40,450 bases of DNA, from IMG/VR virus record IMGVR_UViG_3300025849_000079, positions 1 through 40,450 of that record; one strand, 5' to 3'. Numbering within the stretch: the stretch's first letter is position 1; every line of letters begins with the position of its first letter. A program made the position numbers and the translations under genes. The notes below the pieces were generated by a model that was not told the DNA's origin, ran no database searches, and saw only the letters and a program-made list of their open reading frames with translations. Origin of the DNA: a virus. Below, piece by piece: positions 12,092-40,450 of this stretch.

Positions 12092-12120
12092 ATTATACTA
12101 TACTAATTAGTATTTGTCAA
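12092..12120 (-). promoter_or_regulatory. Early sigma70-type promoter for gene 46
   Basis: TTGACA (12120-12115), 17 bases, TATAAT (12097-12092) on the minus strand. The -35 box lies within the last codons of the Mom-like gene, and only six bases separate the -10 box from the ATG at 12085. Confidence 0.85.
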
Positions 12121-12633
12121 GTCCTTTATTTCCCAGTCCTGTTTTATGTCTTTTCGATATATCTTAGAGAACACATTAAATGGTATGTCCATATATCCGT
12201 TTGCTCTTTGGGTCATCGATCCATGAAAGTTCATATTACATGCTACGTAAATAGTCCCGTCATGCATTCTACTATCAACAGATGTACAGATGTAGTCTGC
12301 TCCAGTCATCTTCATGGTACGGGACACAAACCACGAAGTGATGTTATACTCTTCACTGTCTACGGCAAGTCTTGATAACTCATAGTAATTAGAATAGTCG
12401 GAATCTTTGCATCCATAGTAAAACCTACACCATTCTTCACCACACCTTTTTTGACAATAAGATGTATATTGTACAGCACCAATCAGATCATCACCATTAA
12501 ACAACCCATAGTATTTGTAATCACGTATAACAGCATCATGCTCATCATATATTTTTCCAAGGTAATGGTGTTCTTCTATAATAGACTTTGCCATCCCCTT
12601 ACTAATTGGACGTACATCAAAGTTAGACTTCAC
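12103..12633 (-). CDS. Mom-like / GNAT-fold DNA modification protein
   Basis: This 176-residue protein resembles the Mu Mom family and related GNAT-fold proteins of phages. I see FDVRPISKGMAKSIIEEHHYLGKI at the start, a central strand GLFNGDDLIGAVQYT with the hydrophobic pattern of GNAT strands, and ELSRLAVD at 85-92, a signature seen in Mom-type proteins. A Cys-rich patch (YCQKRCGEEWCRFYYGC) is present between them and could bind metal. Mom in phage Mu adds a carbamoylmethyl group to adenine and protects DNA from restriction. The gene overlaps gp47 by four bases and sits between 47 and 46. Assignment is by motif pattern; a generic acetyltransferase is the alternative. Confidence 0.6.
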   Translation of the reverse strand: MKSNFDVRPISKGMAKSIIEEHHYLGKIYDEHDAVIRDYKYYGLFNGDDLIGAVQYTSYCQKRCGEEWCRFYYGCKDSDYSNYYELSRLAVDSEEYNITSWFVSRTMKMTGADYICTSVDSRMHDGTIYVACNMNFHGSMTQRANGYMDIPFNVFSKIYRKDIKQDWEIKDLTNTN

Positions 12634-17624: not shown

Positions 17625-18260
17625 TTATCCTCGTTGGATATGCTCTACGCAATCCTCCCACCAATCAGTAAGAGGTCGCATTCTGTCAGAAGTATCTGCC
17701 ATGACATAACTTAGAGTAATTCTTTTACAATTCGTTCTTGCACAATGGTATACATGTTCATTTTCTTCACGTGCACCAAAGTACCCTGCTTTACACGACC
17801 AACCCACCTTGTCTTGCATACGTACTTTCTTACCTTCTTTGTCGAGGTACTCAAAGTAACCGTCACCAGTCTCTGACCAAGTAAAGATCAGATTATGACC
17901 AACTGCATTCTCATTCGTATGCCATGCGATAAAACCATCGGGTGGATACATCTGAGACAATGCACTGTGACTTACTCCAAGTTCAAGAGAGAGTCTGTCG
18001 TTAATATCATTATACACTATTTTGTATTGAGAGTCAAGTCCGTTATAGTGATCTGGTTTTAAACAATAAGAACATGCGTTCTTGGGACTACCGTCATGAT
18101 CTTCCATGATAGACTCAAGAAACTCATCTCCAGTCCAGTAGTCTGGGTTGTCTCCATTTAATTGATTATTAGTCAACGCAATCGGTTGATTTAAAAAGAA
18201 GTATTGGAACTCTTCAAGTATCGATTGTACTTGGGGATTCATAATATTAACGTTCTGCAT
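17625..18260 (-). CDS. 2OG-Fe(II) oxygenase-like protein, HxN variant (paralogue 1)
   Basis: This 211-residue protein has the beta-helix core of 2-oxoglutarate/iron oxygenases such as prolyl hydroxylases. MYPPDGFIAWHTNENAVGHN carries the first metal His114, but the usual HxD is HTN, so Asn116 stands for Asp. The second metal His is likely His172 in VYHCARTNCKRITLSY, with Arg180 as the 2-oxoglutarate anchor. GWSCKAGYFG lies between. It is a clear paralogue of the protein at 36535-37233 with the same core. It is coupled (TAATG) to the tail-tube-like gene upstream. Loss of the acidic ligand could mean a different metal chemistry, as in halogenases, or loss of catalysis. Confidence 0.7.
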   Translation of the reverse strand: MQNVNIMNPQVQSILEEFQYFFLNQPIALTNNQLNGDNPDYWTGDEFLESIMEDHDGSPKNACSYCLKPDHYNGLDSQYKIVYNDINDRLSLELGVSHSALSQMYPPDGFIAWHTNENAVGHNLIFTWSETGDGYFEYLDKEGKKVRMQDKVGWSCKAGYFGAREENEHVYHCARTNCKRITLSYVMADTSDRMRPLTDWWEDCVEHIQRG

Positions 18261-28647: not shown

Positions 28648-29421
28648 TTACTGGGCACTATCTAAGTACGCAAGGTTAAATCCATAATCACTATCCGCAC
28701 TCACCCCAGATGGTGTCAGTGTTGTCTGCATTGCAAGTTGGAAAGTATCACTAGCACCAATTGTATATATGTTATTGTTAACTGTTCGGATAACACCCTG
28801 TGTTCTGTCTGGCCCATAGAACGCAATCTTCATTACAAACGATAACGTGTAAATGATTGTTCTACGGTCTCCTACGGATCCTTCGAAGTCATCCGAGAAT
28901 GAAACTCCCTGTAAGGATATAGGAACATCTTCTTTTATCTCTGGGTGAGTCAAACCGAAAGGTTTAACTGCCACCGTATACTGTGGATTGAAATACGGTA
29001 GTATCTGTTCTACCATTTGTAATGCATCGTCTTGAGACTTGGCATATATGTTCACATCAAATGAAATATCATATGGCACCGATGTATAGAATAGATTGCG
29101 TTTGTTATTATTACCTGTAACTGCTGTAGAGAAGTTATTTGTTTTAGGTAACTGCCTTGCAGGATCATAGGTCATAGATGTAATCTCAAATGACATACGT
29201 GGTAATTTAATTGCAACTCTACGTTCGGATTCTTCTCCGTTACGCATCTCACTTAATCTTTCAATAAAGGATCTCTTAGGTGCATATGATAGAGGCACCT
29301 TAACTTGGGAGATAGTTTCACCCGCATTGTTTTGTCGCAAAACGTAAATGTTGTTGAATAAAGATCCGAATACCGATACGGCAGTACGAACTCTCTTATG
29401 ATAGAACCATGAACCGAGCAT
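28648..29421 (-). CDS. 15: Tail completion / sheath terminator gp15
   Basis: gp15 caps the tail tube and sheath and joins tail to head. The 257 residues (T4: 272) match in plan: FYHKRVRTAVSVFGSLFNNIYVLRQNNAGETISQVKVPLSYAPKRSF at the start, MSFEITSMTYDPARQLP, and DALQMVEQILPYFNPQYTVAV near 125, which is nearly the T4 DDMFQIVEQILPYFQPHF. TAATG coupling to gp14. Confidence 0.93.
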   Translation of the reverse strand: MLGSWFYHKRVRTAVSVFGSLFNNIYVLRQNNAGETISQVKVPLSYAPKRSFIERLSEMRNGEESERRVAIKLPRMSFEITSMTYDPARQLPKTNNFSTAVTGNNNKRNLFYTSVPYDISFDVNIYAKSQDDALQMVEQILPYFNPQYTVAVKPFGLTHPEIKEDVPISLQGVSFSDDFEGSVGDRRTIIYTLSFVMKIAFYGPDRTQGVIRTVNNNIYTIGASDTFQLAMQTTLTPSGVSADSDYGFNLAYLDSAQ

Positions 29422-31175
29422 TACGACACATCTCCAAATGGGTTGTTTTCTGAGAAGTCTAAGAAGTCACCTTCAAAGTTATCAAAGAAGTTTGCTTGTG
29501 GTGTTTCAGCAATTATAGTCTGTTGTATTTCTTGTAATTCTCCTACAAGACTTGGACTGTATACTGCATTTGACTCTGCACCAACTACCTGTCCAGTCGT
29601 AGAGAATGTGTGGAACTTGCCGTCTGTTGCTCCAACGTGTGCAAGATATAATCCATTATCTGAATCAGACCACTTGACAACTTCTCCTGTTATGGTATAC
29701 TCACTGTTGACCTGTGTAACTTTCTCATTACGTTTATAGTTACCACCCGTATACGGTGCGGATATTGTAACAGAAGGAGGAGTATTATAGTAGAGACCTA
29801 TGTTAGTAAGTTCAATACCACTCAACTCACCACTAGCATCAATAAGAGCATTCGCAGTGGCAGTTACTGGTTCGAAGTGTTGTAGTGTAGCATCGTATGT
29901 GCTATTAGGAGCATATGCCGTAGTAACAGTAGTTAGTGTTTGGTCATCTCCTACTGTAGCATATCTTGGTACAATAAGTTCTGCTTTAGTTCCTACCTGT
30001 ACACGGAACTCATCGATGAATCCTTCTAATGTTCTCCACTGAACACCATCAAGTTCACGAGCGGCAGTTGAACCAACAGCATAACCATTAGTGGTTACTG
30101 TATCAAATGTTACACCCGCAAGAGTAGTATCCAGTTTGAGATCAAAATCGAAATAGATTAAAATGTTGTTGGTGTCCACAGTAGCAATCAATATATGATG
30201 CCAGTTGCCTTCTGTGAATAGTATGTCGTTACCAGTGAGAGTGTTTAGTCCACCCCCATTGTTATTACCTCTACTATACACCAATCTACCTACACTGTCA
30301 ATACCCCAGAGATATGTTTGGTCATCATTACCATTACCGCCAGTTATGAACATAATGCTATTGTCTATTAGATCTGATACATAGACCCATGCTTCGACTA
30401 CACCACTTGCCCCTGTTTTATTATATGTTGTTTCAACACCACGTCCCCTAATAATATCAAGAGAAGATGTGCCAAACTTAGCATTGTTACCTGCGGGTGA
30501 AGCAATAGTTACTGTCGGTGCTGAAGTATAACCTCTACCACGGTTGGTAGTAGTGAATCCAGTTAGTTGACCTTCAACGTTAATAGATGGAACTGCGGTG
30601 GCAGTTGCATTTGCAATGGAGTCCATAGTCAGTCTATACTGATACGCACCCTCTACCTCTATATCATCGATACTTTCGATGTCTGTATCGAAGTCTTCAT
30701 CGTTGTACTCAAACAACTCACACTGTAGTCTGAATGTTGGTAGATTATTTAATTGATAGAACGGAGTCTCTGTTTCTACCTTGAAAATTTCAAATAGTGA
30801 CTTAGAGAATGGGATGTATATAACATCACCCTCACGTGGACGGAAGTTATACGAGTCGAGTTTATCACCGATTAGTTTCTTCCAACGTCTACGTGCAACA
30901 ACAAAGGTTGCTTGATCTCTTAGTTCTACGCCGAACTTAGAAAACAGATCACCTTCTCCACCGAAACCATCTACGTTTTCAATATAAGTCTCGATCTTAT
31001 ACGCATCACTAAAGCGTGATGGTACGTCATCAAGAAACGTTTTGTCAACGTTAACAAGTTCTCGTGGAAGGTAATATACGTCTTGACCATAAAACTGTAA
31101 GGACTCTATTACGAGGTCTTCATACAGGTTCTGTTCGGTACGTACTTCCTTTGAAATCCATGGGTTTGTTGCCAT
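29421..31175 (-). CDS. 14: Neck protein gp14 with inserted lectin-like domain
   Basis: gp14 forms the neck with gp13. The first about 190 residues match T4 gp14 (256 residues): EQNLYEDLVIESLQFYGQDVYYLPRELVN, DLFSKFGVELRDQATFVVARRRWKKL, and REGDVIYIPFSKSLFEIFKVE. The C-terminus FDNFEGDFLDFSENNPFGD also looks like gp14. Between them, residues about 248-393 hold a concanavalin/LamG-like domain (VEAWVYVSD, EGNWHHILIATVDTNNILIYFDFD, IDEFRVQVG), flanked by Gly/Thr-rich linkers with repeated SAPTVTIASP and TPPSVTISAP strands. The protein is thus more than twice the T4 length. The insertion may bind sugar at the neck, acting like whiskers. Confidence 0.9.
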   Translation of the reverse strand: MATNPWISKEVRTEQNLYEDLVIESLQFYGQDVYYLPRELVNVDKTFLDDVPSRFSDAYKIETYIENVDGFGGEGDLFSKFGVELRDQATFVVARRRWKKLIGDKLDSYNFRPREGDVIYIPFSKSLFEIFKVETETPFYQLNNLPTFRLQCELFEYNDEDFDTDIESIDDIEVEGAYQYRLTMDSIANATATAVPSINVEGQLTGFTTTNRGRGYTSAPTVTIASPAGNNAKFGTSSLDIIRGRGVETTYNKTGASGVVEAWVYVSDLIDNSIMFITGGNGNDDQTYLWGIDSVGRLVYSRGNNNGGGLNTLTGNDILFTEGNWHHILIATVDTNNILIYFDFDLKLDTTLAGVTFDTVTTNGYAVGSTAARELDGVQWRTLEGFIDEFRVQVGTKAELIVPRYATVGDDQTLTTVTTAYAPNSTYDATLQHFEPVTATANALIDASGELSGIELTNIGLYYNTPPSVTISAPYTGGNYKRNEKVTQVNSEYTITGEVVKWSDSDNGLYLAHVGATDGKFHTFSTTGQVVGAESNAVYSPSLVGELQEIQQTIIAETPQANFFDNFEGDFLDFSENNPFGDVS

Positions 31176-31950: not shown

Positions 31951-33804
31951 TTAGTTTAGTAGTGTACCACTTGAATTGTACACGTTAATTCTATAATGTG
32001 TTCCTTCTTGACCATCAAGTGTATCTGCGTTCAGACCACTTGTGTTTGTGTCAACTGTTTTAATTGCTGTTAATAGTTCGGCAGGTGTTGAGTATGTCTC
32101 ACTAAATGAGAATGCACCAGTCGTTGCGTTGTATGCAAGATCACCACCTGCGGAAAAGAATCCTCTAACCTCACCTTGATCTGCTGTTATCGCACCTGTT
32201 CCACTATTATAGTTAACACCAGCGGATGCACTTATTGCACCTCTTGCACGAGCAGTAGTGTGATACAGATTACTGGATCCCTCACTGAGAGCATCTGTGT
32301 CGTGGTTGGATATGCTTGATACCGTACCAGTTACATTACCTGTGATATTACCAACAAAACTCGATGCCTTTACTGGTTTGTTGAAATCAAAACGAGTGTT
32401 ACCATGATCCCATTTCAATACTGGAATAGTACCAGATGACCATGCACCGAATGTTAATCCTGCACCGTCTGTAAGTGCGGATGTTGTTGCACTGTCTGCA
32501 ATGACAATGTTCTTATCCCCAACTGTCAACGTACCAACACTTAGAGTTGTTTGATCTCCAGTGACGGTTAAGTCACCCGATACAAGCACGTCATTAAATG
32601 TCACATTATCTGTAGTTCCTACTGCCTGTCCAATACTGAACTGACCACTACTGTATGAAACACCAGTACCTGCACTTAAATGTGCACGGACTTCTGAGGC
32701 ACTCGGCCCTGTGTATGTAATTACACCAGTAGAGTTATTGTAGGAAAGTGATCCATCACCACCTGCATCGGTAACAGAGATTGCATTTTTAGCAGAACTA
32801 TCTGCCATTGCGTCTGTGTACTGAGTAATCGTTGTACTGATTGCACCATTGGATATATTAATACCAGTACTTGCACTAATAGCAGATCTGATATTTGCGT
32901 TTGTTACTTTAGTATATGCTAATACACCTGTACCAGATGTATATGCAATAGAACCAAATCCTGTACCACTATTGGTTGCACTTACTGCTCCACGTGCACG
33001 GGCAGTGGTATGATAGAGATTAGTCCCTTCTGATAAATCGGATGTTGAGTTATCACCAAAGTCTGAATCAAATCGTGCAGTTGTGTAATATAGGTTATCT
33101 GAATGTTCTGAGATATCGTTTGTTTGTAATGATACCGAACCAACATTACCATTAACACTTAATACTGGTGCCGCTGCCTGTGAGAATGATATAACACCTG
33201 TAGTGCTATTATATGCTAAATCTCCACTAACACTAATCGCACTACGTGATCTACCAGTAGTATGATAAAGATTACTTGAACCTTCTGTAAGATTGTCTGT
33301 TGTTTTGGTACCAAGTCTTGTATCAAATGCTGTATTTACACGAGCAGTTGTATGATAAAGATTCGTATTTTCTGTTAGATCTGCTGTAGTATATGGATCA
33401 AGTGTAAGTACATCTGTAAAGTTACCCGCACTTGTCGATACTGTAAGTGTACCATTACTACTGTCAAAGTCAAGTCCAGATACACCTGCAACTGTAGCAG
33501 TGGCAATACCTGTTACTTGTCCTTGAGCATTGATTGTTAGTCGAGGCACAGTTGTAGCATTACCTACAGTCTGTGCAGTTACTTGGTTGTCAAGATTAAG
33601 AACACCGTCCGTTGCGGTAATACCCGTCCCACCAGAGATCTCTCTCAGTGTTGCAATAGCAGAAGTGCCAGAAGAGTCTGTTGTTTTGAAAAAGACTCTT
33701 CCATCATTAGTATTGAGTGCTAACTCACCTAATGAAATATTTGATGTGGTAGGGGACTTACCCTTTACCGCACTTCTTTTAATCTTTAGAAGTGTGTTCG
33801 ACAT
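31951..33804 (-). CDS. Fibre-like virion protein with YHTTAR repeats
   Basis: The 617-residue protein starts LLKIKRSAVKGKSPTTSNISLGELALNTNDGRVFFKT, a common first domain in marine phage fibre proteins, in which GELA introduces a structural head. The rest is Ser/Thr/Gly/Asn-rich beta structure. At least five copies of NLYHTTAR or NLYYTTAR are visible, several followed by AIS or AVS and LAYNSTTGVISF. Near residue 415 is a module GDLTVTGDQTTLSVGTLTVGDKNIVIADSA also found in the next gene. It is probably a trimeric fibre or a baseplate-linked structural protein. A hairpin of CCCCTGT and ACAGGGG lies just before it. Confidence 0.8.
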   Translation of the reverse strand: MSNTLLKIKRSAVKGKSPTTSNISLGELALNTNDGRVFFKTTDSSGTSAIATLREISGGTGITATDGVLNLDNQVTAQTVGNATTVPRLTINAQGQVTGIATATVAGVSGLDFDSSNGTLTVSTSAGNFTDVLTLDPYTTADLTENTNLYHTTARVNTAFDTRLGTKTTDNLTEGSSNLYHTTGRSRSAISVSGDLAYNSTTGVISFSQAAAPVLSVNGNVGSVSLQTNDISEHSDNLYYTTARFDSDFGDNSTSDLSEGTNLYHTTARARGAVSATNSGTGFGSIAYTSGTGVLAYTKVTNANIRSAISASTGINISNGAISTTITQYTDAMADSSAKNAISVTDAGGDGSLSYNNSTGVITYTGPSASEVRAHLSAGTGVSYSSGQFSIGQAVGTTDNVTFNDVLVSGDLTVTGDQTTLSVGTLTVGDKNIVIADSATTSALTDGAGLTFGAWSSGTIPVLKWDHGNTRFDFNKPVKASSFVGNITGNVTGTVSSISNHDTDALSEGSSNLYHTTARARGAISASAGVNYNSGTGAITADQGEVRGFFSAGGDLAYNATTGAFSFSETYSTPAELLTAIKTVDTNTSGLNADTLDGQEGTHYRINVYNSSGTLLN

Positions 33805-33847: not shown

Positions 33848-35872
33848 TTAATACGTACCACCGTCCAGTGTGGATACAGTTACAGCACCAGAGGTTACTG
33901 TGAATTGGTCACTATCATATGATGCGACACCTTTATTCGTTATTGTTGCCAACTCTGCTGAGAATGTATGAGTACCAGCGCCATCGTTATATGCAAAGTC
34001 AAGACCTTCACCGACTGCAATTGATGTACCCATAACATCTTGGATGTACTCACCAATGGCAGTTCCGTTTCTGTACAACTCACCAGTTGTATTGAAGTCT
34101 TTGTTTACTTCCCACTTATCACCACTTACAAGATACTGTAAAGTAGCAGAGGCACCGTTAATTGTAATACCTGCACCGTTAGCGGCAGTTGCATCAGCGG
34201 CACTATCAGCAAGAACGAGGTTCTTGTCATTGATAGTCATAGTAGTTGAGTTGACTATTGTCTCAGTACCTTGTACTAAGAGGTCACCTTGAATTATGAC
34301 ACGACCACCTGCACTATCTCCACCTTTTGGATCTAGTATAATGTCATTTACAGAAGACGGTGTAGATATTACATTACCGTTAAGAGTAAGATCATCTACT
34401 GTTACGTTTGTTAGTCCTACCAGATTAGTAATCGTACCACCAAGTGATACGTCTGTGCTACCAATAACAATGCCATCATTGGCAAGGTCTGCGTTAGCAA
34501 CAGATCCAGATTTAAGACTTACTGCACCAGAAGATAATGTAAAGTCATTGGTGTCGAATGATGCAATACCTTTATTGGTATATGTTGCATCTTCACCCAG
34601 AACAGTAATAACTGATCCTGCGTGAGTTACATCGACACCTTCTCCACCAACGATAGAGATCCCATGACTTGATGGTGTTAGTCCTGCACCTGTGTCAGTT
34701 GTTATAGTTTTTAGTACTGCGTCATTAAGAGAAACTGCTCCAGAGGATACTCCGAAGTCTGCGGTTGCGAATGAGGCAACACCCTTTGCACTTACGGTTG
34801 CGTCTGCTATTGTCACCGTGACATTAGCGCCAGAACCACTTGTTGTGATACCTTGTGAACTATCACCTATAATACTAAACGAATGACTTGTTGGTGTTGT
34901 GCTACCAGAGTTTGCACCTACACCTTTAACGACTGCATCGTTAAGACTTACTGCACCACTTGAAACTCCGAAGTCTGCCGTAGCAAAACTTGCAACACCT
35001 TTGGCAGATGTTGTGGCAGTTGCCATAGAGTAAGTTGCAGTATTTGTACCACTATCATACGCAAAGGATATTCCGTTGCCCGAAGAGGCAAACGATAATC
35101 TTTGTGATGCAAGTGGTATTGTATCTCCCTGTACATTTAGGGAAGTACTGATTGATGCTGTACCAGCGGCAGTTAACCTACCCTGTGCATCAACTGTGAA
35201 TGTTGGAATAGCAGTAGCAGATCCATAGTCTCCTGCTGTTACAGATGTATCGTCAAGATCGATGGATACTGCGTCATTAGTTACCGCAGTTGTAATTCCA
35301 CTAAGACCATTAAACAATAATGTTCCAGAGGCGGCATTGAATGTATCTGTAGCAGATCCGTCACCGATAGTAAATGTCTGACCTGCGGTCACTGCATCTA
35401 CGTATGCTTTAGTGGCGGCATCCGAGTCGGCAGTAGGTGTACCAACTTGTACAATACGTTTGCCAACTACATCTACAGTTGTTCCGAAAACAACAGAGTT
35501 GACTGTAGTAGTACCTGTACCATTAGGTGCAAGTATTAATCCACCATTTGTATTTGTAGTAGATACTGTGTTACCGTTCAAGGTTATGTTATCTACGTTC
35601 AGTACATCGATCTTACTGTTTGCATCTACAAGGATTGCACTGTTCGGGGTCAGTGTTCCTAATGCATGATCCAGTTTAGACGTGAAGTACTTACCACCAA
35701 TTACTTCGTGGTTTACAGCATTTCCTGCTACTTCGGTGCCAGTACCGATATATAGACGATCACCACCATTGGAACCGTTATCGGCAAGAGATGAATATGC
35801 TAATTCACCCTGCCCAAGTGTTGTCGGGTCACCCGCAGTCCCCGATCTTTTAATTCTTAATATTGATGCCAT
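33848..35872 (-). CDS. Fibre-like virion protein with KGVASF repeats
   Basis: The 674-residue protein starts SILRIKRSGTAGDPTTLGQGELAYSSLADNG, the same GELA head domain as its neighbour, followed by DGSATKAYVD-like segments (DSDAATKAYVDAVTAG) typical of fibres. The middle and end carry four copies of a repeat of the form KGVASFATADFGVSSGAVSL (first copies near 35000 and 34780, divergent ones near 34560 and 33920). A module near residue 520 (GDLLVQGTETIVNSTTMTINDKNLVLADSA) matches the next gene. It is overlapped by one base with the small gene upstream. A trimeric beta fibre is likely. Confidence 0.8.
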   Translation of the reverse strand: MASILRIKRSGTAGDPTTLGQGELAYSSLADNGSNGGDRLYIGTGTEVAGNAVNHEVIGGKYFTSKLDHALGTLTPNSAILVDANSKIDVLNVDNITLNGNTVSTTNTNGGLILAPNGTGTTTVNSVVFGTTVDVVGKRIVQVGTPTADSDAATKAYVDAVTAGQTFTIGDGSATDTFNAASGTLLFNGLSGITTAVTNDAVSIDLDDTSVTAGDYGSATAIPTFTVDAQGRLTAAGTASISTSLNVQGDTIPLASQRLSFASSGNGISFAYDSGTNTATYSMATATTSAKGVASFATADFGVSSGAVSLNDAVVKGVGANSGSTTPTSHSFSIIGDSSQGITTSGSGANVTVTIADATVSAKGVASFATADFGVSSGAVSLNDAVLKTITTDTGAGLTPSSHGISIVGGEGVDVTHAGSVITVLGEDATYTNKGIASFDTNDFTLSSGAVSLKSGSVANADLANDGIVIGSTDVSLGGTITNLVGLTNVTVDDLTLNGNVISTPSSVNDIILDPKGGDSAGGRVIIQGDLLVQGTETIVNSTTMTINDKNLVLADSAADATAANGAGITINGASATLQYLVSGDKWEVNKDFNTTGELYRNGTAIGEYIQDVMGTSIAVGEGLDFAYNDGAGTHTFSAELATITNKGVASYDSDQFTVTSGAVTVSTLDGGTY

Positions 35873-36100: not shown

Positions 36101-36460
36101 TTACCTTGTTACGGAAGGTGTGACTTTAATCTTACCCTCCAATATCCTTTCAATTATTGTTTGACTATTACTATCTTGATAAGATAGTTCTACGTCATAG
36201 ACATACCTCAATCTTGAATTGAGGGAATCGGTTTGGGAATTAGTTAATGCGAGAGTAAGAATACCATCGGTTGCAGGGGATGCAACTATTGTAGTGAATG
36301 AAGTAATCTCATCACTATCTGTAGAGTTGTAACTGCGTTTCATTTTAGCAAGGGCACTATGACCAGTCAAGTCCTTTTTAGAACCATCCTGCTCTTGCAG
36401 ATGTAACTCTATTGCTACGTCTGCCCCTTGATCAATTGTAAAATCTTCGTAATCTGCCAT
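36101..36460 (-). CDS. Small beta-rich virion protein (BppU/Ig-like)
   Basis: This 119-residue protein has the look of the N-terminal domain of baseplate upper proteins and of related small marine phage proteins: FTIDQGADVAIELHLQEQDGSKKDLTGHSALAKMKRSY, then ILTLALTNSQTDSL and RYVYDVELSYQDSNSQTIIERILEGKIKVTPSV. It starts a late operon with the fibre genes. A TATAAATA late promoter lies upstream, bracketed by a 10-bp inverted repeat whose inner arm ends at the ATG. Confidence 0.75.
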   Translation of the reverse strand: MADYEDFTIDQGADVAIELHLQEQDGSKKDLTGHSALAKMKRSYNSTDSDEITSFTTIVASPATDGILTLALTNSQTDSLNSRLRYVYDVELSYQDSNSQTIIERILEGKIKVTPSVTR

Positions 36461-36534: not shown

Positions 36535-37233
36535 CTATTCTTCTGAACTTATTTCTTCTAATATGTCTTCACGTAATGCTTCGGATAGACTGTCTGTGCT
36601 GAATGTGAAAGATACTGTAACTCTCCAACAGTCTGTCTTGGCAGTATGGTACATTAATCTTTCTGGTTCACCATAGTGTCCAAAATATGCCGCCTTACAT
36701 TGCCACCCTTTCTTATCTGGCATTTCAACTATTTCTTTAGTTATGGGATCCAGATAGTTAAACTGCCCAGTACCTTCTTCTGACCATGTAAATATTAAAT
36801 TGTATGCCGCTGCATTAGCATTGTTATGCCATGATATGAAACCGCCTGGTGGGTAGTATGCAGTCAATGCACACGTCCTTACACCTAACCATTCCATAAT
36901 TTCTGTTTGCATCACACCTAACTCAGAAGTTCTTTCTAATCGTTTAGTTGGATGACACTCGTCACTAAAGAATTGATGTTCCCTTCTACTAACAGTTAAC
37001 TCATAACCATACATTTGATCTGGGAATCCTTCGTGCCTTTCTCCTTGTTCTACGATCTCATTTAAGTGACCTTCTCCTGTAAGGAAATGCCTCTGATCTT
37101 TATAGTCTTGACAGGTACGATGAAAATCATTTTGAAACGATTCTTTATCTTCTGTTAGAAAACGAGTATACCTATTCAGTATATTCAACAATTCCTTGTT
37201 CTTGACTTCTACATCTATCATGTGTTTGCTCAT
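36535..37233 (-). CDS. 2OG-Fe(II) oxygenase-like protein, HxN variant (paralogue 2)
   Basis: This 232-residue protein has the same core as the one at 17625: AYYPPGGFISWHNNANAAAYNLIFTWSEEGTGQFNYLD, with His136 and Asn138 where Asp is usual, GWQCKAAYFG, and YHTAKTDCWRVTVSF with His196 and Arg204. The N-terminal 110 residues differ from the paralogue. The ATG overlaps the stop of the glycosyltransferase (ATGA). As in many marine T4-like phages, such proteins are linked to structural modules and might hydroxylate virion or host proteins. Whether the Asn variant is active is unknown. Confidence 0.7.
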   Translation of the reverse strand: MSKHMIDVEVKNKELLNILNRYTRFLTEDKESFQNDFHRTCQDYKDQRHFLTGEGHLNEIVEQGERHEGFPDQMYGYELTVSRREHQFFSDECHPTKRLERTSELGVMQTEIMEWLGVRTCALTAYYPPGGFISWHNNANAAAYNLIFTWSEEGTGQFNYLDPITKEIVEMPDKKGWQCKAAYFGHYGEPERLMYHTAKTDCWRVTVSFTFSTDSLSEALREDILEEISSEE

Positions 37234-37967
37234 ATTATATGCCCATCCTTATCTAAACCACAAGAATAGTGCCGAATAATTATCTCACCCTCTGGACGTG
37301 GGCCTCTTGCCCAGTTCAGTGCGTTATAATAATTCCATCTAAGATCATCATTAATAATTCCATACTTGAGGTCTTTGTATTTTTCTTCCTTTTCAGTTAA
37401 CCACCACAATGAGAACTGATCCCATGACTGTAAGGATTTATTATATCCTTCGGGCCACCATCGACCATCCATTTGGTCTTTAGTTAACTGATCCCAGTCT
37501 TTCATAAACTCTTGAACTAAAGGTACGGTATTGTCGTATAGACAAATGCCACCGCATAACACAAACTTTTTTCGTCCTTCGGGTGTATCAAACTCTCGTT
37601 CTGCATAAACATATGATCTATCATCTGTTAGTTCAGAGAAGAGAACATCGTGTTCACTTTTTTCTAACTCATCAAAACAAATCTTAATGTCTTCATGTTC
37701 GCATTCCATGTCCACATCGAGGTACATCGTCAAGTCATACGGTGACTTCCACATACCTTCCAGTTTAGCACGGTAATGAGAAGAGCAATCGTGGATCTCA
37801 TCAAAGAGATCTTTGTCTTGTTCTTCTAACATCCAAGGTTCACAAAACAGGGTAATCTTGGCATCCTCATAATAATCAATAATGGATTCTGCCAGATTAA
37901 TAGCATATTTGTAGAAGTTGATCTTATTAGATGCAACTAAAACATATCCTTTACTTTTTTCACTCAC
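37230..37967 (-). CDS. Glycosyltransferase with DVD motif
   Basis: This protein of about 245 residues resembles GT-A glycosyltransferases. SKGYVLVASNKINFYKYAINLAESIIDYY is a first Rossmann-like unit; YLDVDME holds a DxD metal/nucleotide-sugar motif; then SELTDDRSYVY, LCGGICLYDN and a final WNYYNALNWARGPRPEGEIIIRHYSCG. I favour GTG 37967, eight bases after GGAG. ATG 37976 touches that site, and the TTG at 38009 is deep in the upstream gene. It shares an operon with a coiled-coil protein and an oxygenase, under an early promoter. Confidence 0.65.
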   Translation of the reverse strand: MSEKSKGYVLVASNKINFYKYAINLAESIIDYYEDAKITLFCEPWMLEEQDKDLFDEIHDCSSHYRAKLEGMWKSPYDLTMYLDVDMECEHEDIKICFDELEKSEHDVLFSELTDDRSYVYAEREFDTPEGRKKFVLCGGICLYDNTVPLVQEFMKDWDQLTKDQMDGRWWPEGYNKSLQSWDQFSLWWLTEKEEKYKDLKYGIINDDLRWNYYNALNWARGPRPEGEIIIRHYSCGLDKDGHII

Positions 37968-38448
37968 TTGAGTCATCTCCAATTGGTTCTGCCTTTGCCT
38001 CTTCTGCAAGATCTAACTCATACTGAAACAACATAATTGCATATAAGTTAACTTCAACCTTAGACTTAGCACGTCTTAGTTTTGCCTTCAGTGCTCTATT
38101 CTTAGAGTTTTTAATTTGTTCTGTTTCAAAGACTTCAAGTTTGTAATTGAAAAGTTCTTCTAACTTACGTGCACGTGCGTGTTCTGTATCACGTTGCTTG
38201 TCTTCTTCCTTTTCTGCTTTCTTACGAACCTTACGGTCTTCGGTATTTTTATCAATTGAATCTGTACCAAGTGCTTCGATAACTTCATTAAAGAGTTCAT
38301 TCTCTTTACCGTCCTTATCTAACCTACTAAGTAACATCACCTGTCGTGTTTGACGATTTACATCATCTTCCATCTCAAGTATACAATTCAGTTTTTCTTT
38401 CTCTTCGGTTTCCCAAAAAGCATTATCCATCCATCGTTTAAATGCCAT
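37960..38448 (-). CDS. Charged coiled-coil protein, unknown
   Basis: The 162-residue protein begins MAFKRWMDNAFWETEEKEKLN and is almost entirely helical and charged, with a long Lys/Glu/Arg coil at about 70-125 (RKVRKKAEKEEDKQRDTEH, then KLEELFNYKLEVFETEQIKN). The C-terminus is acidic. No family recognised. It is the first gene of an early-type operon, with an AGGAGA ribosome site and a leader of about 20 bases. It could bind a host protein or nucleic acid, but the sequence does not say. Confidence 0.75.
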   Translation of the reverse strand: MAFKRWMDNAFWETEEKEKLNCILEMEDDVNRQTRQVMLLSRLDKDGKENELFNEVIEALGTDSIDKNTEDRKVRKKAEKEEDKQRDTEHARARKLEELFNYKLEVFETEQIKNSKNRALKAKLRRAKSKVEVNLYAIMLFQYELDLAEEAKAEPIGDDSSE

Positions 38449-38507: not shown

Positions 38508-40450
38508 TTATGCTACTCTTACATATAATGTATAGGTATCGATTACTTCGGTACCCGAATTTAGGGTTGTCCCCACATAGTTACCAACAAAGTTACGTGA
38601 GTAATTACCCACGAAGTTTCTTGCATAGTCACCCGCAAATGTTCTTGAATAGTTTCCTATAAAGTCTCCAACGTATTCACCTGCAAATGTTCTTGAATAG
38701 TTTCCTGTAAAGTCACGGGCATAGTCACCTACAAATCCTCTTGTATAATCCCCAGTAAAATCTCCTACAAAATCTGTTTCCCTGTTTCTTGTATAGTTAG
38801 CAGAGAATGCAGAAATTCTTGTACGTGAGTATATAGACACACGGGTACGAGCAGATATACGAGTTGAGTTACGAGAGTAATTACCTACAAATGTTCTTGA
38901 ATAGTTACCCACATAGGAAGATATTCTGGTACGTGTTGATATACGTGAATATTCTCCTGCAAATGCACGAGAGTAATTACCTGTGAAGTCCCCAATGAAT
39001 GCCGAGATACGAGTACGTAATGAGGTTCTGGTATACTCTCCAAGGAAGTTACGAGTATAGTTACCAACGTATGAAGATACTCTGGTACGTGTTGATACCC
39101 GTGTGTACTCTCCTGCAAAATCTCTTGTGTAGTTACCAATAAAGTTACCTAAGAAGTTTGAGTTACGTACACGAGTTGATGTGCGTGTGTATTCTCCAAG
39201 GAATCCACGAGTGTAATCACCAGTGAAGTTACCTGCATAATTGGATACACGAGTTCTTAATGATGTTCTGGTATAATTACCCACAAATGTGCGTGTGTAG
39301 TTTCCAGTAAATTCACCTGCATAACTTGATACTCTGGTACGGGTAGAGTTTCTTGTGTACTCTCCCACAAATCCACGGGCATAATTACCTATGTAATCTC
39401 CTGCGAATCCTCTGGCATAGTTACCAACAAATCCTCTTGCAAAGTTTCCTACGTAATCTCCTACGTAATCGGTAACACGTGTTCTGCTATACTCACCTGC
39501 AAATGCACGAGAGTAGTTACCTACGAATGTACGAGAATAGTTTCCTGTGTAGTTACCTGCAAATGGTCGAGTGTATTCTCCAGATGTAGCAATCATCTCT
39601 GCAACGGTAGGTATATCTGCATGAGTAGTGTCATCTACACGAGGTTCCCAGAACTGTTGATGTGTATTGGTATCAGTTGAGTAATACAAATAACAACGAT
39701 GTCTTGCTGTGGTATTATTCGATTTCCATATGTAATCGAGGTAAACATCTTGAATTTTCTCACCTGCTATATTGTATATACCAGATTCAGCATCCATAGC
39801 ACCAGACTCAACTGTTGTTCCATATGGCCATACATGACCTACCAACAAGAACCATTCGTCATGATGTCCATTTTCGAAAATGTTTTTACCATACCAGAAG
39901 TATGGGTTTCCAGCCGGCCCGTAGGCACCACTGACATTTTTTCTATCTACACCATCACCATTAGCATTTAAACCAAAATATGCATCTCCGTTACCGAGAG
40001 TCTTACGTTTTACCCACACAGAGAATCTATATTTTTTAGTCTTGTCTATATTAAAATAATCACCATTCCAACCACCGTCTGCGTTTGAGTCAGCATCTTG
40101 TTGATCAATATCCCAGACAACATCTTGACCTTTCGGAGACTCATCTACCAAACGTGAGTTACCATCACCATTCTGAGGATAACCTGTAGTGGATCCAGTA
40201 CCTACTGCCCACTTTGGGAATCCAGAGTTGTTGGCAGGGGATAATTGATTAGAACGATCACTGTAACGAGTTCCAGTTGTACCTATAAATGTTACTAAAC
40301 TATCACGTGTTGATGTTCTGCTATAGTTACCTACGAAGTCTCTGGAATAGTTTCCAATATAGTCTCCTGCAAATCCTCTTGCATAGTTACCAATAAAGGT
40401 TCTTGAATAGTTTCCTGCATATGTTGATACACGTGCACGTGTTGAGTTAC
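38508..40450 (-). CDS. Tyr/Arg tetrapeptide-repeat virion-type protein, 5' end cut by window edge
   Basis: The frame is open to base 40450, giving 646 visible residues; an internal ATG at 40151 is not the start. The visible N-terminal part and everything after about residue 290 consist of four-residue units of the form x-Tyr/Phe-x-Arg/Gly, such as NYSR-TFVG-NYSR. In the middle (about 39600-40300) a non-repeat domain with KYRFSVWVKRK and DEWFLLVGHVWPYG looks like a lectin or carbohydrate-binding jelly roll. From 39362 to 38883 the tetrads form six copies of a 28- or 24-residue super-repeat. The C-terminus (GTEVIDTYTLYVRVA) is a plain beta strand. Similar FxGNYxR repeats occur in proteins from marine phages, but I know no structure. 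A fibre or an adhesive virion surface protein is the best guess. Confidence 0.85.
   Translation of the reverse strand, partial: NSTRARVSTYAGNYSRTFIGNYARGFAGDYIGNYSRDFVGNYSRTSTRDSLVTFIGTTGTRYSDRSNQLSPANNSGFPKWAVGTGSTTGYPQNGDGNSRLVDESPKGQDVVWDIDQQDADSNADGGWNGDYFNIDKTKKYRFSVWVKRKTLGNGDAYFGLNANGDGVDRKNVSGAYGPAGNPYFWYGKNIFENGHHDEWFLLVGHVWPYGTTVESGAMDAESGIYNIAGEKIQDVYLDYIWKSNNTTARHRCYLYYSTDTNTHQQFWEPRVDDTTHADIPTVAEMIATSGEYTRPFAGNYTGNYSRTFVGNYSRAFAGEYSRTRVTDYVGDYVGNFARGFVGNYARGFAGDYIGNYARGFVGEYTRNSTRTRVSSYAGEFTGNYTRTFVGNYTRTSLRTRVSNYAGNFTGDYTRGFLGEYTRTSTRVRNSNFLGNFIGNYTRDFAGEYTRVSTRTRVSSYVGNYTRNFLGEYTRTSLRTRISAFIGDFTGNYSRAFAGEYSRISTRTRISSYVGNYSRTFVGNYSRNSTRISARTRVSIYSRTRISAFSANYTRNRETDFVGDFTGDYTRGFVGDYARDFTGNYSRTFAGEYVGDFIGNYSRTFAGDYARNFVGNYSRNFVGNYVGTTLNSGTEVIDTYTLYVRVA
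38883..39362 (-). repeat. Six-copy 84/72-bp coding super-repeat
   Basis: Six in-frame units: 39362-39279, 39278-39195, 39194-39111 (84 bp each), 39110-39039 (72 bp), 39038-38955 (84 bp) and 38954-38883 (72 bp). The consensus of the long unit in tetrads is EYTR, xSxR, TRxS, xYxG, xFTG, xYTR, xFxG. The short ones lack one tetrad. Codons differ between copies, so the array is not a fresh duplication. Confidence 0.85.

Follow-up and report, generated by a model that had tools for sequence, protein, structure and literature searches.

The right-hand end of the window (the whole 40,450-nucleotide stretch of viral DNA analysed here, IMG/VR record IMGVR_UViG_3300025849_000079) encodes a protein dominated by Tyr/Arg tetrapeptides, which raises the question of what such a repeat builds and which of its periods evolution preserves. 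The gene order of a tail-fibre region, an insert resembling CBM and phage-fibre domains, an architecture common to the relatives and a strictly conserved period of four suggest that this ORF probably encodes the distal portion of a giant tail fibre with which a marine T4-like myovirus binds its receptor. The ORF is open at its 5′ end and runs off the right edge of the window; since relatives show a missing N-terminal domain and further repeats, its 646 residues represent an incomplete protein. Its parts are as follows:

38508..40448, minus strand: tetrad-repeat fibre protein, C-terminal 646 aa (from the ORF and its homologs)
40299..40448, minus strand: tetrads N-terminal to the globular domain, residues 1–50
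39585..40259, minus strand: jelly-roll/CBM-like globular domain, approximately residues 64–288, inserted among the repeats
38583..39554, minus strand: main tetrad array, residues 299–622
38826..39341, minus strand: stretch organised as 28/24-residue super-repeats
38511..38582, minus strand: conserved C-terminal tail, residues 623–646, ending ..(I/V)(E/D)TYTLYVR.A

Tetrads of the form x[YF]x[RG] made up 308 of the 646 residues (48%), in agreement with the sequence-only reading, which had put about half of the visible protein in this pattern with strict four-residue spacing. Within residues 301–622 the pattern occurred 61 times, compared with 16 (maximum 28) in 2000 shuffles, and all 62 Tyr and Phe residues fell in a single mod-4 phase. 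A skeleton of [YFSR] at position 2 and [RGST] at position 4 fitted 80 of the 81 in-phase tetrads. Autocorrelation was 0.16 and 0.31 at lags 4 and 8, versus 0.02 and 0.09 at lags 5 and 6, and odd lags were depleted, with self-identities of 0.01–0.03 against a shuffled value of 0.09. The protein thus lacks the period of the pentapeptide and hexapeptide beta-helices, with which a four-residue unit had already been judged incompatible. It also differs from collagen-like fibres, as Gly does not recur at every third residue (lag-3 identity of 0.03) and Pro is absent from residues 301–622.

A longer period is superimposed on the tetrads. Self-identity at lag 28 was 0.37 (z 17.8) in the repeat region and 0.51 within 38883–39362, the segment that had been read as six copies of 7 or 6 tetrads; starts of the motif R[TV]R[VIN][ST] were spaced 48, 28, 28, 28, 24, 28, 28 and 8 residues apart, which bears out the two copy sizes. 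The repeats do lie at 38883–39362, but the array is longer, extending to approximately 38583–39554 plus 40299–40448. Super-repeat copies were 65% identical as protein and 63% identical as DNA, and different codons were used at 47 of the 93 residues identical between copies. This equal divergence, with half of the identical residues recoded, points to old conservation at the protein level and not to recent DNA duplication, and indicates that selection acts on the protein level of the tetrad array. When the repeat region was compared to its counterpart in the relative L002 (85% identical), 25 of 27 substitutions fell at the ‘x’ positions 1 and 3.

The 28-residue super-repeat is real locally and in L002, yet the super-period peaks at 24 (with 8, 12 or 32) in four other relatives (L005, L016, L003 and L004). 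Across 112 related proteins (94,639 dense-repeat residues), 82% of the spacings between successive aromatics were multiples of four, where 25% would be expected without a register. Lengths of indels between relatives were mostly multiples of four as well; aromatic spacing is the preferred evidence, since the aligner itself favours the register. The consensus over these 112 proteins is [ND]-[YF]-[TASV]-[GR], with a simple grammar: R accompanies Y and G accompanies F, a YR tetrad is followed by FG in 45% of cases and FG by YR in 49%, and the residue after Gly is N, D or E in 89% of cases. Many stretches thus read as an octad, [ND]-Y-x-R-x-F-x-G, and super-units of 12, 24 or 28 residues occur elsewhere. 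Because relatives use these other super-units, the comparison indicates that the tetrad is the unit kept by evolution, and that the 28-residue super-repeat is local and lineage-specific and not a structural unit.

The scan of viral sequences recovered relatives of the fibre at 45 loci, usually as two neighbouring paralogs per locus; at one of these (L010, 9281–12794) a frame break splits the second paralog, which in a near relative (L032) is a single 1144-aa ORF. Complete members have a median length of 1115 residues, the shortest being 503 and the longest 3364, and follow a common plan: an N-terminal domain of ∼265 aa, a tetrad shaft, and a C-terminal YTLYVR.A or close variants, in which T640 and Y642 (numbered as in the 646-residue ORF) are invariant across 44 sequences. 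In giant members the shaft consists of hundreds of strictly spaced tetrads (Tyr-x-Arg/Phe-x-Gly), while in more distant relatives (L130, L131 and L137) the domain and tail are retained around a less strict repeat (Y-x-G/Y-x-R). What the data show directly is a conserved N-terminal domain in the relatives, a strict-register shaft, optional lectin-like inserts, a conserved tail and a fixed place in a fibre cluster. A full-length relative was found by tblastn in Phage C48C1 (WJE88074, OQ984149), with an open frame of 3364 residues, annotated as a 3348-aa ‘hypothetical protein’. This phage has the N-terminal domain, the tetrads, the jelly-roll, the C-terminal tail and the neighbouring cassette, and differs from the window copy in having more repeats and additional inserted domains. 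Within its frame, at residues 1834–2153, ∼75 residues comprising the end of the globular domain and tetrads are repeated almost exactly, either by recent duplication or through an assembly artefact. The N-terminal domain scan of genome contigs found no relative, and the tetrad repeat was not described in any of the literature searched.

Searches of Pfam, PHROGs and PDB sequences returned nothing significant for the whole window fibre or for a profile of the tetrad repeat; no Pfam match and no significant PHROG match tied it to gp34–gp37 or another named fibre family. The sole part matching other phage proteins was the inserted domain, which is common to the ‘virion structural protein’ of the Vibrio phage D480 group (33–38% identity), encoded next to long tail fibre genes and with no reported match to the tetrad repeat. 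AlphaFold2 modelled most of residues 95–285 at a pLDDT of about 60–90, as a beta-sandwich with VIA-align Z scores of 11.3–9 to the Douge central fibre, CBM22/16/4 and MAM domains. Among PDB neighbours the Douge central fibre, from a mycobacteriophage, scored highest (Z 11.3, with an rmsd of 3.0 over 147 residues); over the CBMs and this fibre, rmsd was 2.6–3.4 across 129–148 residues at a sequence identity of ∼10%. BFVD neighbours of the insert model were phage tail proteins. Matches to clostridial neurotoxin binding domains were also seen, and reflect a common lectin-like fold only. The predicted CBM-type similarity is confined to this domain, which is absent from most relatives and is thus a module set into the shaft; in the closest relative, L002 (1–2376), some 185 additional residues break it up in turn, as though another module had been inserted there. 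The N-terminal domain of a family member was modelled with a pLDDT of mostly 72–95. Its fold search gave a best Z of 3.3 and no BFVD match below E 2.6, which does not prove a new fold.

Downstream of the fibre, the window encodes a series of genes on the same strand:

37960..38448, minus strand: charged protein of 162 aa, encoded next to the fibre on its downstream side in loci extending far enough
37230..37976, minus strand: GT-A-type glycosyltransferase-like protein with an invariant DxD and weak GT2/GT8 Pfam matches in relatives
36535..37233, minus strand: possible 2OG-Fe(II) oxygenase-like protein, H136-x-N138...H196...R204 conserved
36101..36460, minus strand: LtfC/L-shaped tail fibre assembly-like protein
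33848..35872, minus strand: large neighbour, probably fibre/structural (phrog_15769, a PHROG without an assigned function)
31951..33804, minus strand: structural/tail-fibre-like neighbour

The four-gene cassette directly behind the fibre (a 163-aa protein, the GT-A-like glycosyltransferase, the possible 2OG-oxygenase and the LtfC-like protein) is near-constant, and in loci reaching that far the order continues through fibre genes to gp14 and gp13. The oxygenase label is suggested by the residue pattern. The partner glycosyltransferase is encoded by 282 IMG/VR stretches. When the 80 best of these loci were examined in reverse, a tetrad-repeat ORF lay upstream in 74 of the 76 with at least 900 bases upstream of the glycosyltransferase; in the divergent L131, L132 and L137 other large ORFs lie between the two. 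Among 50,697 phage records, C48C1 was the sole carrier of each of three cassette proteins; the same genome encodes the fibre and, just upstream of it, a tail fibre assembly chaperone. The protein is thus encoded in a tail-fibre region together with fibre assembly factors, in C48C1 as in the window. Pelagimyophages have a host recognition cluster, lying between VrlC and gp14, that includes tail fibres and glycosyltransferases (PMC7029224). As that cluster is described in the parts of the paper covered here, the fibre locus corresponds to it in neighbourhood, glycosyltransferase company and putative carbohydrate-binding domains; the large upstream ORF (phrog_358) may be VrlC. Fibre domains named in those same parts are YHYH, ConA, collagen, Mtd and YadA, and the Tyr/Arg tetrad repeat is not found there (PMC7029224).

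Several other structures could be proposed for the repeat. The idea of a new solenoid, raised from the sequence, would here mean a single-chain beta-solenoid with one coil of 24 or 28 residues, and the 646-aa model does show weak strand pairs at a spacing of ∼28 residues. We consider it unlikely. The two AlphaFold2 runs left the repeats at pLDDT 22–55 (∼45–55 in the 646-aa model and 22–36 in a second family member), giving the suggestion no support, and the super-period varies among relatives (28, 24, 12, 8), so that there is no fixed coil length. The inputs were monomers, for which low pLDDT is uninformative about a possible homotrimer, and the MAFFT alignment broke up the repeats with numerous gaps, making that part of the structure input weak; such models neither prove nor exclude an ordered oligomer.

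The same low confidence, along with an abundance of Tyr, Arg, Gly, Ser and Asn, would suit a disordered, flexible adhesive or condensing tether with Tyr/Arg stickers and Gly/Ser/Thr/Asn spacers. However, sticker–spacer proteins need neither a strict register nor a substitution-proof skeleton, whereas this repeat shows a depletion of odd lags and a skeleton that tolerates few substitutions; Thr, Val, Tyr, Phe and Ile, moreover, favour beta structure. The resemblance to phase-separating proteins seen in the sequence-only reading is therefore a poor fit, and a tether has a rather low probability. Neck proteins among the neighbours could instead point to an inner or non-fibre structural protein with a repetitive scaffold, such as a baseplate or head decoration protein, yet the lectin-like insert, the fibre-assembly neighbours and sizes from ∼500 to 3364 aa make this quite improbable. 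The alternative guess of a fibre on the virion fits both the gene context and the CBM-like insert common to annotated Vibrio phage virion proteins, and a receptor-binding tail fibre remains the preferred reading.

The best reading of the shaft itself is an oligomeric beta structure that would work like those of T4 gp5 and the long tail fibres, with no claim of family membership. The C-terminal triple-stranded beta-helix of T4 gp5 is built of VxGxxxxx octads (PMC4576200). Likenesses to it include a short in-register repeat, a hydrophobic-x-Gly-Asn/Asp motif, an alternating pattern and a place in a phage tail module. The unit of the tetrad shaft is instead four residues (often paired to eight), with Tyr/Arg and Phe/Gly replacing Val-x-Gly; its consensus, [ND][YF]x[RG], has no Val at the core position and does not reproduce the gp5 octad. 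By hhalign, the tetrad profile gave a non-significant P of 0.029 against gp5, better than the controls (0.16–0.99), and there was no further sequence link to gp5 or long-tail-fibre proteins. The repeat is also strongly basic (pI 10.2), a property that we regard as atypical of shafts and that counts against one. In L130 (4912–7119), an upstream neighbour with a PHROG match to baseplate hub/tail lysozyme carries gp5-like GNxTxxVxG octads, and the two shaft types are thus neighbours.

In such a fibre, large (Tyr/Arg/Phe/Gly) and small residues would alternate along unbroken amphipathic beta-strands that turn at Gly-Asn/Asp, and a stiff shaft would arise from the winding or stacking of two or three chains, on the model of the gp5 beta-helix. 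Attachment to the baseplate would fall to the conserved N-terminal domain, and registration or initiation of oligomerisation to the C-terminal tail; the CBM-like domain may bind host glycans. The number of tetrads would set fibre length: the gp5 helix rises about 0.6 Å per residue, and if a similar rise is assumed, 1400 repeat residues would span very roughly 80–90 nm. Conceivably, the neighbouring glycosyltransferase and possible oxygenase modify the fibre covalently.

Known phage shaft repeats comprise a handful of types (coiled coil, collagen, beta-helix and beta-prism). A strict tetrad repeat that lacks relatives in Pfam and the PDB and significant ones in PHROGs, present in proteins of up to 3364 residues, would add a shaft type as well as a length-tunable beta material. 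The fibre is also a marker for a common lineage of marine T4-like viruses, in which host recognition has yet to be studied. More tentatively, and with some doubt on our part, the shaft could represent a new fibrous fold: an oligomer with a four-residue quantum and a Tyr-Arg/Phe-Gly ladder core, forming fibres of extreme length in a widespread marine virus lineage and possibly modified by the adjacent glycosyltransferase and oxygenase.

Elsewhere in the window, the protein at 17625–18260 (minus strand) looks similar to that at 36535–37233 (minus strand). Both have a WHxN...YH...R pattern resembling 2OG-Fe(II) oxygenases, with Asn where Asp is usual, and neither had a convincing Pfam or PDB match. 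The gp13-like neck protein at 29421–31175 (minus strand) has 584 aa and far exceeds the length of the Pfam neck model; by eye, an inserted LamG/ConA-type domain seems to occupy the middle of the protein, which Pfam does not confirm. Lastly, the ORF at 12103–12633 (minus strand) of this T4-like marine phage encodes a Mom family protein (Pfam PF25680, E 2e-14), from a class of DNA modification that counters restriction.
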